Notes under the pieces: model-generated
The model's database searches: none
What the model was told of the DNA's origin: nothing
What the model saw: the letters and a program-made list of their open reading frames with translations, nothing else
Source of the DNA: Acidiferrobacteraceae bacterium
Lineage (GTDB): Bacteria; Pseudomonadota; Gammaproteobacteria; Arenicellales; UBA868
Direction of reading: 5' to 3'
Assembly (NCBI GenBank): GCA_002724185.1
Contig: PBOB01000054.1
Coordinates: forward strand, 1-64,000
Length of the DNA: 64,000 nucleotides
Translations under genes and position numbers: made by a program
Shown here: one piece after another, positions 21,649-25,526 of the stretch
Numbering within the stretch: the stretch's first letter is position 1
Layout: each line of letters opens with the position of its first letter

Positions 21649-22374
21649 TTAGCCTCTAGCACGTTTCATTGCGGCTTCAAGTTCTTCAGTTTCTATAAGA
21701 AAGGATGTTTTCAGTACTGACAAATCCCCGTCGAGTTTATATCCAAGTGGGATAGCGGTAGGAATGTCTCGGTTCAATATTTCATCCTCTGATAGGTTTT
21801 CTAGTAATTTCACTAGCGCCCGAAGACTGTTGCCATGGGCCACAACGAGCACACAGCGATTGTTGTTAATCGCAGGCGCAAGATATTCTTCCCAATATTC
21901 CTTAACACGAACTAATGTATCAGCCAGCGATTCGCCATTAGGGACTTTTGTTAGGTTTGCATAAGCTGGGTCATTTGCTGGATGTGTTGGGTCACCATCG
22001 GCAAGTTTAGGCGGTCGGGTAGAAAAGCTGCGACGCCATTTTACAACCTGCTCTATTCCATGTTCTGATGCGGTTTCTTTTTTGTTGAGGCCTTGTAAAG
22101 CGCCGTAGTGACGCTCGTTTAATCGCCAGTCGATGGTTTTAGGGATAGAGCAATGGTTCATTTCTTGGAGTACTATTTCGAGTGTTTGCTGAGCTCTTCC
22201 AAGATACGAGGTGAAGGCGTGATCAAAGACATAATCGGAGTCGCGCAAGATCTTGCCTGCGTAGCGCGCTTCATTAACACCGTTATCTGAAAGTGGGATA
22301 TCAATCCAACCTGTAAATCTGTTTTCAAGATTCCAAACGCTTTGGCCATGGCGAAGCAAAATCAGATTATGCAA
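21649..22374 (-). CDS. gpmA: 2,3-bisphosphoglycerate-dependent phosphoglycerate mutase
   Basis: Glycolytic and gluconeogenic enzyme interconverting 3- and 2-phosphoglycerate through a phosphohistidine. The phosphate-binding motif LILLRHGQSVWN is at the N-terminus with the catalytic His at residue 9. The second active-site His is in VVAHGNSLRAL. LNERHYGALQGLNK is also conserved. Length 241 residues fits the dPGM family (~250), ruling out the shorter broad-specificity phosphatases. Confidence 0.95.
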   Translation of the reverse strand: MHNLILLRHGQSVWNLENRFTGWIDIPLSDNGVNEARYAGKILRDSDYVFDHAFTSYLGRAQQTLEIVLQEMNHCSIPKTIDWRLNERHYGALQGLNKKETASEHGIEQVVKWRRSFSTRPPKLADGDPTHPANDPAYANLTKVPNGESLADTLVRVKEYWEEYLAPAINNNRCVLVVAHGNSLRALVKLLENLSEDEILNRDIPTAIPLGYKLDGDLSVLKTSFLIETEELEAAMKRARG

Positions 22375-22418: not shown

Positions 22419-23021
22419 TTAGAGATGCAACCTTTCTAAGAGTCCGCGCAATGCTTGTCCACGGTGGCTAATCTGGTTTTTTTCAGCTTCAGTTAGTTCC
22501 GCAGCTGTTCGATTAAGATTATCAATTAGGAAAATCGGATCGTAGCCAAAACCGTTTTGACCATGTTCAGAAGAGCTAATTGAACCCTCCCAAGTGCCTA
22601 AGGAAATTAGAGGTGATGGGTCGGAAGGTGACCTTAGGTAGACCATAGCACACTGGAATCTTGCCATTCTTTTTTTCGGCGGCAAATTTTTCAGAACTCC
22701 AAGTAGTTTCTCTCGGTTGTCTTGGTCGGTCGCGTTTTCTCCAGCGAATCGAGCTGATCTAAGCCCAGGAGCGCCATTAAGAAAATCTACCTCAAGACCA
22801 GAGTCATCAGCTATGGATGATTGACCACTGTGTTTGCAAGCATTACGGGCTTTTATCAAAGCGTTTTCTACGAAGGTTAAACCAGTCTCTAAAGCCGGAG
22901 GTACATTATATTTTTGCTGCGATTCGATTTCTATATCTGTTCCAGCTAGTAGAGACTCAATCTCCAGCAATTTACCTAGATTGTTGGTGGCAAGAACAAT
23001 TGTTTCTTTTGTAAATGGCAT
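22419..23021 (-). CDS. rdgB: XTP/dITP pyrophosphatase (non-canonical purine NTP hydrolase)
   Basis: House-cleaning enzyme that hydrolyses dITP, ITP and XTP to monophosphates. The N-terminal IVLATNNLGKLLEI, SIADDSGLEVDFLNGAPG, ARFAGE and GFGYDPIF motifs are all present in order, with QISHRGQA near the end. The ATG at 23021 gives 200 residues; an upstream ATG at 23057 would overlap rph and add a non-homologous extension. It begins 7 bases after the rph stop, an rph-rdgB linkage seen in many bacteria. Confidence 0.95.
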   Translation of the reverse strand: MPFTKETIVLATNNLGKLLEIESLLAGTDIEIESQQKYNVPPALETGLTFVENALIKARNACKHSGQSSIADDSGLEVDFLNGAPGLRSARFAGENATDQDNREKLLGVLKNLPPKKRMARFQCAMVYLRSPSDPSPLISLGTWEGSISSSEHGQNGFGYDPIFLIDNLNRTAAELTEAEKNQISHRGQALRGLLERLHL

Positions 23022-23028
23022 TGATGCA

Positions 23029-23742
23029 TCAGGATCTGGTTTGAAGTTGCAAGGCAATTAACTGACGTATTCCTGTTTGTGCGACAGAAGCCATCAACTG
23101 GAGTTGGTCTATAGCAAACGAAGATTTTTCAGCAGTGCCCTGAATCTCAATAAATTTCCCTTCTGAATTGATTACAAAATTCATATCGGTATCAGCTCGA
23201 CTGTCTTCGGCATAATCGAGATCCAACATCACAATATCATCAATAAGGCCAACAGCTACTGCAGCAACCTGGTCCGTGATCGGCTTTTTATGAATTACGC
23301 CGGATTCAACTAGGTGGTCGAGAGCATCAGCTAAGGCAATCCAAGCTCCAGTAATTGCGGCGGTTCTAGTGCCACCGTCTGCTTGTAGCACATCACAATC
23401 AAGGATAATTGTTCTCTCGCCGATGGCCTCAAGCTCAACCACAGATCTTAATGACCGACCGATCAGTCGTTGGATCTCCTGAGTCCTGCCAGCCTGCTGA
23501 TTTTGTTTGGCTTCTCGACGGGTACGAGTATTGGTAGCCCTTGGCAGCATACCGTACTCTGCTGTAACCCAGCCCTGGTTTTTGCCCCTAAGAAAAGATG
23601 GCACACTGTTCTCAATACTTGCTGTGCAGAGAACATGGGTATTTCCAAATGCTACTAAGACTGACCCCTCGGCGTGTGGATTGTAGTTTCGGGTGAAACT
23701 AATGGGTCTCATTTCATCATTTCGACGGTCATGCGATCTCAT
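23029..23742 (-). CDS. rph: Ribonuclease PH
   Basis: Phosphorolytic 3'-5' exoribonuclease that trims tRNA 3' ends. The ATG at 23742 gives 237 residues (238 in E. coli) beginning [20 protein letters not shown], which aligns with the family N-terminus. The upstream in-frame ATG at 23802 overlaps the regulator gene and is rejected. [30 protein letters not shown] and [19 protein letters not shown] are conserved. C-terminus appears complete, unlike the frameshifted rph of E. coli K-12. Confidence 0.95.
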
Positions 23743-23755
23743 AAGAGTAGAATAC

Positions 23756-24517
23756 CTAGTTATCCTTATGATTGGGAAACCCCATTTCTCGTCGCGCCGC
23801 ACGCGCTTGGCGCTGACGATCTATATCAACCTGGGAAAGTGTTTTTTCGACTTGATTTATATGATAATCGGACGCAGTGCGAGCTGCCGCGGAGTCACCT
23901 TTCAATATCGCAGTAAGCAAGTGGTAATGTTGATCACGTAGTTGAGCAAACATGCCGGGATAAGTGTATAAGTTCTCCAGATTGAATCTAATACTCTTTT
24001 TTAACAGCGAGAATAAGCTTCTCATAACGTGGAGTAGTACCACATTGTGGGATGCTTCGCCGATCGCCAAATGGAAATCCGCGTCGGCACGAGCTTCAAG
24101 AGATGGGTCTCCGAGCCCATGCGATTCTATCAGGCGCTTATAGGCAGATCTAAGCATTTCCTTGTCGGTTATCGTATGGCGTTCTGCAGCTAGAGAAGCG
24201 GCTAGCGATTCGATAGCATGTCGCAATTCAAGCACGTCGCCATGACTTTCGGGGGCATTGCTAATCAATTCAAGCAAGGGATCTTCCAACGTGGGATTTA
24301 AGGTGTCGGTAACATATGTGCCGCCCCCTTTTTCGCTCCTCAAAATGCCTCTCGTAGCAAGAATCCGAAGAGCCTCTCTCAGAGACGGCCGGGAAACACC
24401 AAGTTGTTCTGCTAGAGGGCGCTCTGCTGGGAGTTTTTCGCCTGGGGCTAGACTACCCTCTAGAACAGATTGCTCAATACGTTGGCAGACAAGTTCGGCG
24501 ACGCGCGGTCGGTCCAT
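23756..24517 (-). CDS. GntR/FadR-family transcriptional regulator, PdhR-like
   Basis: A 253-residue repressor with an N-terminal winged helix ([20 protein letters not shown], residues ~25-44) and a C-terminal all-helical FCD ligand domain. It resembles PdhR through the stretch [13 protein letters not shown] and the following [14 protein letters not shown]. In E. coli PdhR senses pyruvate and represses pdhR-aceEF-lpd. No pyruvate dehydrogenase genes are nearby; it sits 13 bases before rph and divergent from yicC. The operator in front of it suggests autoregulation. LldR or another FCD regulator is the main alternative identity. Confidence 0.85.
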
Positions 24518-24535
24518 AATGGATATCGTATGGTT

Positions 24536-24552
24536 AATTGGTAAGACCAGTT
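24536..24552 (-). promoter_or_regulatory. Putative PdhR-type operator
   Basis: AATTGGTAAGACCAGTT reads as an imperfect dyad (AATTGGT / ACCAGTT around AAG) with one position breaking symmetry. It closely resembles the known PdhR box with half-sites ATTGGT and ACCAAT three bases apart. It lies 19 bases upstream of the PdhR-like start, where it would block transcription of that gene, in the region shared with divergent yicC. Confidence 0.7.
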
Positions 24553-24656
24553 TATGTGAGAGCGTACCATATATTGTGCGTGAATAGCGCCAAAAAAGCA
24601 GATAAAATCAGGTTTTCTTCTGACTAAATTAGTTCTATTTAACCCAAGGATATGAT

Positions 24657-25526
24657 ATGGCTCAAAGTATGACCGCATTTAGCCGTGAGGAGTCGGATGG
24701 CTTGGCTGGTAAGCTAACTTGGGAAATCAGATCGGTCAATCATCGATATAAAGAGATTTCTCTTCGTTTGCCAGACGAGTTAAGAGCTATAGAACCATCG
24801 GCTAGAGGAATCATTTCTGAGACGATAAGGCGTGGCCGGATTGATGCAACTCTCCATTACCAGTCAAATTCTGATTCTGATGATGATGAGAGACAACTAA
24901 ACACCGATAGTATTCAACGCCTTGCTCAATGGGAAGGCCAGCTACGAAATTATATTACTGATGTTGTGCCACTTAGTGCAGCCGATATCTTACGTTGGCC
25001 AGGAGTGTTGTATGTAGAGGCTAAGGACGTCGACAGCCTATCTGAGCGGGCATCAGTATTGTTGGGTAAAGCTCTTGAGGTCCTTATTCACAATCGGCAG
25101 CGAGAAGGCGAAAAATTGACAGAGATTCTCAGTGACAATCTTTTGTCTACTAGGAGTTTAGTTATTGATATTGGCCAGCAGTGGCCAGCAGTGGAGACTG
25201 CAACGCGCAACAGACTTAATAGCAGGATCGCCGAGTTTAAAGATCAATTAGATCCAGATCGACTGGAGCAGGAAGTAGTTTTACTTCTCAGTAAGGCTGA
25301 TATTAAGGAGGAGCTCGATCGTCTTGTTTTGCACATCGAGGAGGTTGGGCGCGTGCTGGCTTCTATTGAACCGATTGGCCGGCGTCTAGATTTTCTAATG
25401 CAAGAGCTTCATAGAGAGGCCAATACTCTGGGCTCGAAATCAACTCATCCGACAATTACATCGGCCAGTATTGATCTAAAAGTATTGATAGAGCAAATGC
25501 GTGAGCAAGTTCAAAACATCGAATAG
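24657..25526 (+). CDS. yicC: YicC/YloC family endoribonuclease
   Basis: A 289-residue protein beginning MAQSMTAFSREE, the family opening. It has WEIRSVNHRYKEISLRLPDEL and an ending with RRLDFLMQELHREANTLGSK that is the most conserved block. YicC of E. coli is an RNA-degrading enzyme acting on a small RNA. It is commonly placed before gmk, as here. An AAGGATATGAT ribosome binding site precedes the ATG. It is divergent from the PdhR-like regulator. Confidence 0.94.
   Translation: MAQSMTAFSREESDGLAGKLTWEIRSVNHRYKEISLRLPDELRAIEPSARGIISETIRRGRIDATLHYQSNSDSDDDERQLNTDSIQRLAQWEGQLRNYITDVVPLSAADILRWPGVLYVEAKDVDSLSERASVLLGKALEVLIHNRQREGEKLTEILSDNLLSTRSLVIDIGQQWPAVETATRNRLNSRIAEFKDQLDPDRLEQEVVLLLSKADIKEELDRLVLHIEEVGRVLASIEPIGRRLDFLMQELHREANTLGSKSTHPTITSASIDLKVLIEQMREQVQNIE

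Follow-up and report, generated by a model that had tools for sequence, protein, structure and literature searches.

The window, a 64,000-nucleotide stretch of DNA from an Acidiferrobacteraceae bacterium (positions 1 to 64,000 of contig PBOB01000054.1, assembly GCA_002724185.1), carries a gene for a GntR-type regulator that is followed on the minus strand by rph, rdgB and a gpmA-like gene and is faced by yicC on the plus strand. A previous sequence-only reading had described this arrangement, which the open reading frames bear out. The features on which the analysis rests are the following:

24657..25526, plus strand: yicC, the divergent neighbour (open reading frame)
24561..24566, minus strand: candidate -10 element TACGCT of the regulator promoter, proposed by eye
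24536..24552, minus strand: predicted autoregulatory operator, AACTGGTCTTACCAATT, with the core TGGTCTTACCA at 24539-24549 (conservation and matrix score)
24531..24534, minus strand: possible extra half-site ACCA, 4 bases past the core on the gene side (by eye)
23756..24517, minus strand: GntR-FCD regulator of the PdhR/LldR group, 253 aa (Pfam, NCBIfam and alignment)
23029..23742, minus strand: rph (open reading frame), 13 bp behind the regulator
22419..23021, minus strand: rdgB (open reading frame), 7 bp behind rph
21649..22374, minus strand: gpmA-like phosphoglycerate mutase (Pfam His_Phos_1), 44 bp behind rdgB

We take rph to be such from its resemblance to Rph (its name and start were also given by the sequence-only reading), and rdgB is presumably what its own resemblance suggests. 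The next gene follows gpmA after 20 bp, and the short gaps along this row of genes (13, 7, 44 and 20 bp) make co-transcription plausible; rph-rdgB-gpmA are probably co-transcribed with the regulator in the window's genus and in a second genus of the family, g5.

The predicted operator and its conservation

The 17 bases at 24536-24552 read AATTGGTAAGACCAGTT and differ at a single position from the PdhR operator pattern ATTGGT-N3-ACCAAT, every other site in the window having at least two mismatches. On the coding strand of the regulator the site reads AACTGGTCTTACCAATT, and 18 bases separate it from the ATG of the gene (24517, minus strand). The sequence thus confirms the one-mismatch PdhR pattern reported in front of a PdhR-like gene; the short distance also stands, although the count is 18 rather than the 19 bases given. 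The operator of the E. coli K-12 pdhR gene, AATTGGTaagACCAATT (PMC7660256), differs from AATTGGTAAGACCAGTT in one base with the spacer counted. FCD-type regulators have operators of the TKGT/ACMA type in common (PMC4494728), and TGGTAAGACCA in the window fits this type as described there, with 3 bases between GT and AC.

In order to score such sites, we derived a 17-bp matrix solely from sites in front of the regulator's own gene (self-sites, 20 different ones), so that all promoters scanned below lie outside the matrix set. The window site reaches 22.5 bits with this matrix and 21.3 bits, the top score of the window, with a matrix of 18 self-sites that excludes the window's genus. With 50 mononucleotide-shuffled windows, the highest site scored 20.3 bits and the mean of the maxima was 13.2. 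The bare TGGT-N3-ACCA core was found at 3 places in the window, where 0.61 would be expected, and thus proves little by itself.

The regulator was found in 23 of the 25 family genomes compared (G000-G024), with 58-84% identity to the window protein; no close match was found in G015 and G024, which are 61% and 70% complete. All 23 have the TGGT-N3-ACCA core unbroken at this position, as does G032, a member of another family, and we consider this conservation the best evidence for the site. Across these loci the 17-mer starts 21-35 bases ahead of the ATG, with CTT, CAT, CAG or CTG as spacer. The independent cases number fewer than 23, given the kinship of the genomes and the near-identity of some loci. 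Those of G007 and G014, for instance, are near-identical and may represent contigs that binning assigned to both assemblies; G014 has a further regulator copy on C186, which lies outside the comparison. Downstream of the regulator, rph-rdgB-gpmA are found in 5 of the 23 family genomes (G000, G001, G005, G009 and G012), while an Mrp-like antiporter operon takes this place in the other loci examined gene by gene (L028, L029, L033, L038 and L109; confirmed by an MNHE domain in L029 only). The site stays constant while the genes downstream vary, and so it belongs to the regulator gene: 24536-24552 is most likely the autoregulatory operator of the adjoining GntR/FCD regulator.

Further elements around the operator were seen by eye. 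An ACCA placed similarly to that at 24531-24534 appears in many family loci, G005, G009 and G012 not being among them, and extra half-sites of this kind are known for other GntR regulators (PMC4494728). A TANNNT-like element lies 9-13 bases ahead of the operator in several family loci; a promoter scanner run over 24400-24700 found no promoter. The operator follows the possible -10 box, a position that would suit repression.

The regulator protein

Both Pfam domains of the regulator score above their cut-offs (PF00392, GntR, 74.9 bits; PF07729, FCD, 85.1 bits), and the combination of a GntR winged helix with an FCD domain places the protein in the FadR/FCD subfamily of the GntR family. Among NCBIfam models LldR ranks best, with 235.4 bits (cut-off 311), followed by PdhR with 223.9 (cut-off 330) and by GlcC with 172, also below its cut-off. 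Since every curated model remains below its cut-off, 'PdhR-like' is a fair but not an exclusive label. In a 41-protein tree, whose base is unresolved, the window regulator pairs with L027 only and joins neither PdhR nor LldR. E. coli PdhR clusters in this tree with L043-L047 (support 82/83), in 4 of which aceE adjoins the regulator, and E. coli LldR groups with [Pseudomonas] boreopolis and, with lower confidence, with Thiothrix. The name given earlier therefore holds as a statement of resemblance but is too narrow, as the LldR model outscores the PdhR model and the tree places the protein with neither.

The recognition helix of the window regulator, VSRPSLRE, is identical to that of E. coli PdhR, whereas E. 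coli LldR has VSRNSLRE. A set of one Asp and three His residues makes up the metal-ligand pattern of FCD domains. In a 16-row alignment all four (D145, H149, H197 and H219) are kept in the window regulator, but the first two are missing from E. coli PdhR. Relatives of the regulator at 48-58% identity are found beside lutABC, at lctP-dld-lutA, or ahead of aceE; the lactate loci of Thiothrix, for example, have related regulator genes beside lctP, dld and lutA.

Predicted targets elsewhere in the genomes

The most regular remote sites precede lutA. Among the family loci, 20 of 22 carry a site of at least 7 bits, the other two (G011 and G019) reaching 5.5, and in all 22 the top-scoring site of the 250-bp upstream region is located between -111 and -168; no close lutA match was found in G009, G015 and G016. 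None of seven control genomes of the order, all without a close orthologue of the regulator, reaches 7 bits at lutA (maximum -1.9). These are seven of the eleven order genomes that have lutA besides G032, the other four being G028, G031, G038 and G040, and one of the seven, G030, carries a 42% regulator. Of 2000 random 250-bp windows from lut loci, 4.0% reach 7 bits. The information content of the lutA sites is 1.81 bits in core columns and 0.36 in the flanks, a difference that is inflated by anchoring on the site, unlike the constant position in 22 of 22. In most relatives TCCA replaces ACCA in one half of the site. G024 has a lutA site of 10.8 bits although the regulator was not found there, and the second lutA copy of G004 has none. 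In the window's own genome, ATTTGGTCTGACCAGAT lies between a divergent MFS gene and lutA of lutABC and scores 23.9 bits, which makes it the strongest promoter site found in this genome (an in-gene copy on contig C60 scores 23.8). Predicted operators before lactate-utilisation genes, a feature expected of LldR, are thus present at lutA.

Sites were also found before aceE, in a search that took in G000-G015 and G025-G033, with G016-G024 outside it. Upstream sequence was available for 13 family loci, of which 8 have sites of 8.6-19.5 bits at about -140 to -200, and the remaining 5 are weak or lack a site (-2.6 in G004; 1.8-3.3 in G005, G009, G012 and G015, all of genus g5). The aceE site of G032 scores 15.0 bits, and none of the 7 control loci has a site (best 4.2). 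Not counted were G000 (96 bp upstream), G002 (no aceE match), G003 and G029 (fragments), and two additional aceE copies: L210 of G025, where the core is not matched, and L211 of G030, which has a site beside the adjoining 42% regulator. In the window's own genome, G000, aceE opens a contig, whose end cuts the promoter. In G001, of the same genus, CGATGGTCTTACCAGGG lies between aceE and the divergent sat, and a G000 contig that starts just ahead of sat carries CAATGGTCTTGCCAGAT at C86:65-81 (12.1 bits). As this is the position next to sat where G001 has its aceE-sat site, an aceE site is expected in the window's own genome as well, and is likely but not proven.

In G002, G004 and G018 a pyruvate:ferredoxin-type oxidoreductase operon follows lutABC. 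The gamma subunit of G004 scores above the TIGR02175 subfamily cut-off, and pyruvate-specific models are the best matches of the G004 oxidoreductase proteins, yet below their cut-offs. All four porG promoters with a close orthologue of the regulator in the genome have sites, of 17.7, 17.7 and 16.5 bits in G002, G004 and G018 and of 15.0 in G032; the near-identical por DNA of G002 and G004 is counted as one case, and the site of G032 could be owned by a second, 45% regulator present in that genome. In the 3 genomes with porG and without a close orthologue no site was found (1.5, -0.6 and -5.6 bits). The lut-por DNA of G002:C18 (L225) and G004:C8 (L228) is near-identical although the two genomes belong to different genera, and may stem from contigs binned twice.

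We rejected gltA as a family-wide target. TGGTCTAACCA lies about 230 bp ahead of gltA in the window's own genome (G000:C59:43610-43620, L149) and also in G001 (L292), with 12.3 and 9.4 bits, and within the family these sites are confined to the window's genus, the other 13 family loci reaching at most 3.0 bits (one of them with no more than 99 bp of upstream sequence). Outside the family, the scores are 10.5 in G032 and at most 6.0 elsewhere. TGGTCTAACCA recurs at G000:C33:47390-47400 (L142), between LysR-type and ABC-transporter genes, which may be a further target or chance. The own-genome copies at C60:1493, C1:51021, C2:103089 and C86:7570 lie inside open reading frames and were taken as chance for that reason. 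Counting the bare motif genome-wide is uninformative: against a reversed control pattern it gave 132 versus 90 rows and 22 versus 20 rows in the window's own genome, and 18 versus 37 in five relatives, with no clear over-representation.

The genes next to the regulator fare differently. Where family genomes have rph without the regulator and with an upstream region, none of 9 loci has a site of at least 10 bits (G013, whose contig starts inside the gene, was dropped from this count). Outside the family, matches of 12.9 bits inside rph in G032 and of 12.0 bits about 0.67 kb upstream in G031 were seen. Further, no regulator separates rph from the yicC that it faces in G032 and G027, an order that we read as the older one. 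As the rph operons of the family that lack the regulator also lack such a site, any tie to gpmA or RNA trimming amounts at most to co-transcription in two genera; such co-transcription may have effects, yet would not make these genes a conserved target. Nor does yicC find support as a target in the loci compared, in several of which a kinase-like open reading frame intervenes. This frame was identified as protein-kinase-like in L028 (4993-5865, Pkinase 117 bits), between yicC and the regulator, and similar frames exist in L033 and L038. Thus the suggestion that the site ties pyruvate status to gpmA, RNA trimming or yicC is unsupported as a conserved function, whereas its alternative, that the regulator acts on remote targets, is well supported by the sites that precede lutA, aceE and porG where the regulator is present. 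These are also the further copies before pyruvate-related genes whose absence was to have counted against the original proposal.

Proposed role and alternative explanations

On the evidence above, we consider it likely that a PdhR/LldR-type regulator controls its own gene through this operator and has a remote lactate/pyruvate regulon, to which the neighbouring genes are mostly incidental. A dimer of the regulator would bind the palindrome just ahead of its own start codon and repress its own gene, and a carboxylate of the lactate-pyruvate node (pyruvate or lactate) would release it from the DNA. The main regulon would lie elsewhere in the genome and comprise LutABC, which leads from lactate to pyruvate, and either pyruvate dehydrogenase or the pyruvate:ferredoxin-type oxidoreductase, which lead from pyruvate to acetyl-CoA, while rph-rdgB-gpmA would ride on the regulator transcript in the window's genus and in g5. 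Comparison between genomes lends good support to the remote pyruvate/lactate regulon; that the regulator binds these sites, that it represses and does not activate, and that its effector is pyruvate or lactate are inferences.

The alternative to be taken most seriously is that the protein is an LldR-like sensor of lactate rather than of pyruvate, with aceE and por as side targets. LldR is the best NCBIfam model, lutA is the most regular remote target, no other remote promoter of the own genome has a site as strong, and the relatives at 51-58% identity are located at lactate loci. Sites before both aceE and porG speak against it, however, as do a recognition helix that is that of E. coli PdhR and not that of LldR and a tree that does not join the regulator to LldR; we regard a lactate sensor as possible, if somewhat doubtful. 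A main purpose close to home, with rph-rdgB-gpmA and perhaps yicC under pyruvate control, appears very improbable. The gaps of 13, 7 and 44 bp do suggest a single transcript, and the gene order recurs in five genomes of two genera, but the self-site is conserved equally where other genes follow, none of the 9 family rph operons that lack the regulator has a site, and in G032 and G027 rph faces yicC without it.

It is also quite unlikely that the remote sites are owned by another FCD regulator of the same cell. Operators of the TKGT/ACMA type are common to FCD-type regulators (PMC4494728) and the own genome encodes two further FCD proteins, yet these have the recognition helices IGRTPIRE and ASRGTVRE and align with the window regulator only in part, at 30-34% identity. 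Moreover, the matrix derives from the promoter of this very regulator, and control genomes without the regulator are also without sites. That the palindrome is a chance string without function is hardly credible: the bare core is frequent and shows no clear enrichment, and some high-scoring copies (C60, C1 and C2) fall inside genes, but chance would have to account for an intact core at the same place in each of the 23 family genomes found to have the gene.

Among known systems, E. coli K-12 PdhR has an autoregulatory operator ahead of pdhR and counts pyruvate dehydrogenase and lactate genes among its targets (PMC7660256), like the predicted sites here; its operator is the same but for one base and its recognition helix is identical. 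However, pdhR stands ahead of aceE whereas the window regulator stands ahead of rph, and E. coli PdhR lacks the first two FCD metal residues that the window regulator keeps, the PdhR model remaining below its cut-off. LldR, the best model, has lactate-oxidation genes as its target in E. coli, as is predicted here, but its model is also below cut-off, the tree sets it apart, and sites of the window type also precede aceE and porG. Control of pyruvate dehydrogenase and lactate use by one regulator is described for Shewanella and E. coli (PMC5343134, PMC7660256). The expanded PdhR regulon of Shewanella includes pyruvate dehydrogenase, the lactate genes lldP-dld, and gltA (PMC5343134, PMC3223726), whereas the family of the window has sites at lutABC and the pyruvate:ferredoxin-type oxidoreductase, with gltA above 4 bits in G000 and G001 only. 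A GntR gene named PdhR occurs in a pdhR-lutABC-lutP cluster of Sideroxydans (PMC5178258); there the regulator adjoins lutABC, whereas in the window's genome the two are on different contigs.

We found no description of this family's regulon in the PdhR/LldR literature searched. Our tentative proposal, to which we give nearly an even chance, is that a third PdhR/LldR-type lineage with an intact FCD metal pattern serves as a single switch for the route from lactate through pyruvate to acetyl-CoA, that its operator tracks whichever pyruvate-oxidising enzyme is present (pyruvate dehydrogenase or the pyruvate:ferredoxin type), and that in two genera the regulator, placed ahead of the housekeeping genes rph-rdgB-gpmA, has captured these as well. 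For a family of mostly uncultured gammaproteobacteria this yields a testable carbon regulon from sequence alone. It suggests that the operator tracks function, in the form of either pyruvate-oxidising enzyme, and not neighbourhood, and it cautions against inferring the targets of such regulators from adjoining genes. The known picture of PdhR-type control is unchanged, the regulator looking like an ordinary carbon-metabolism switch.

Finally, a gene for a DctP-type TRAP solute-binding protein lies near the regulator in L039, L043, L044, L045, L047 and L050, including loci where aceE follows, and TGGTCATACCA is found about 0.3 kb ahead of a DctP-like gene in G001 (G001:C21:3035-3045, L236). The DctP-type TRAP protein is a candidate importer of pyruvate or lactate under the same control.
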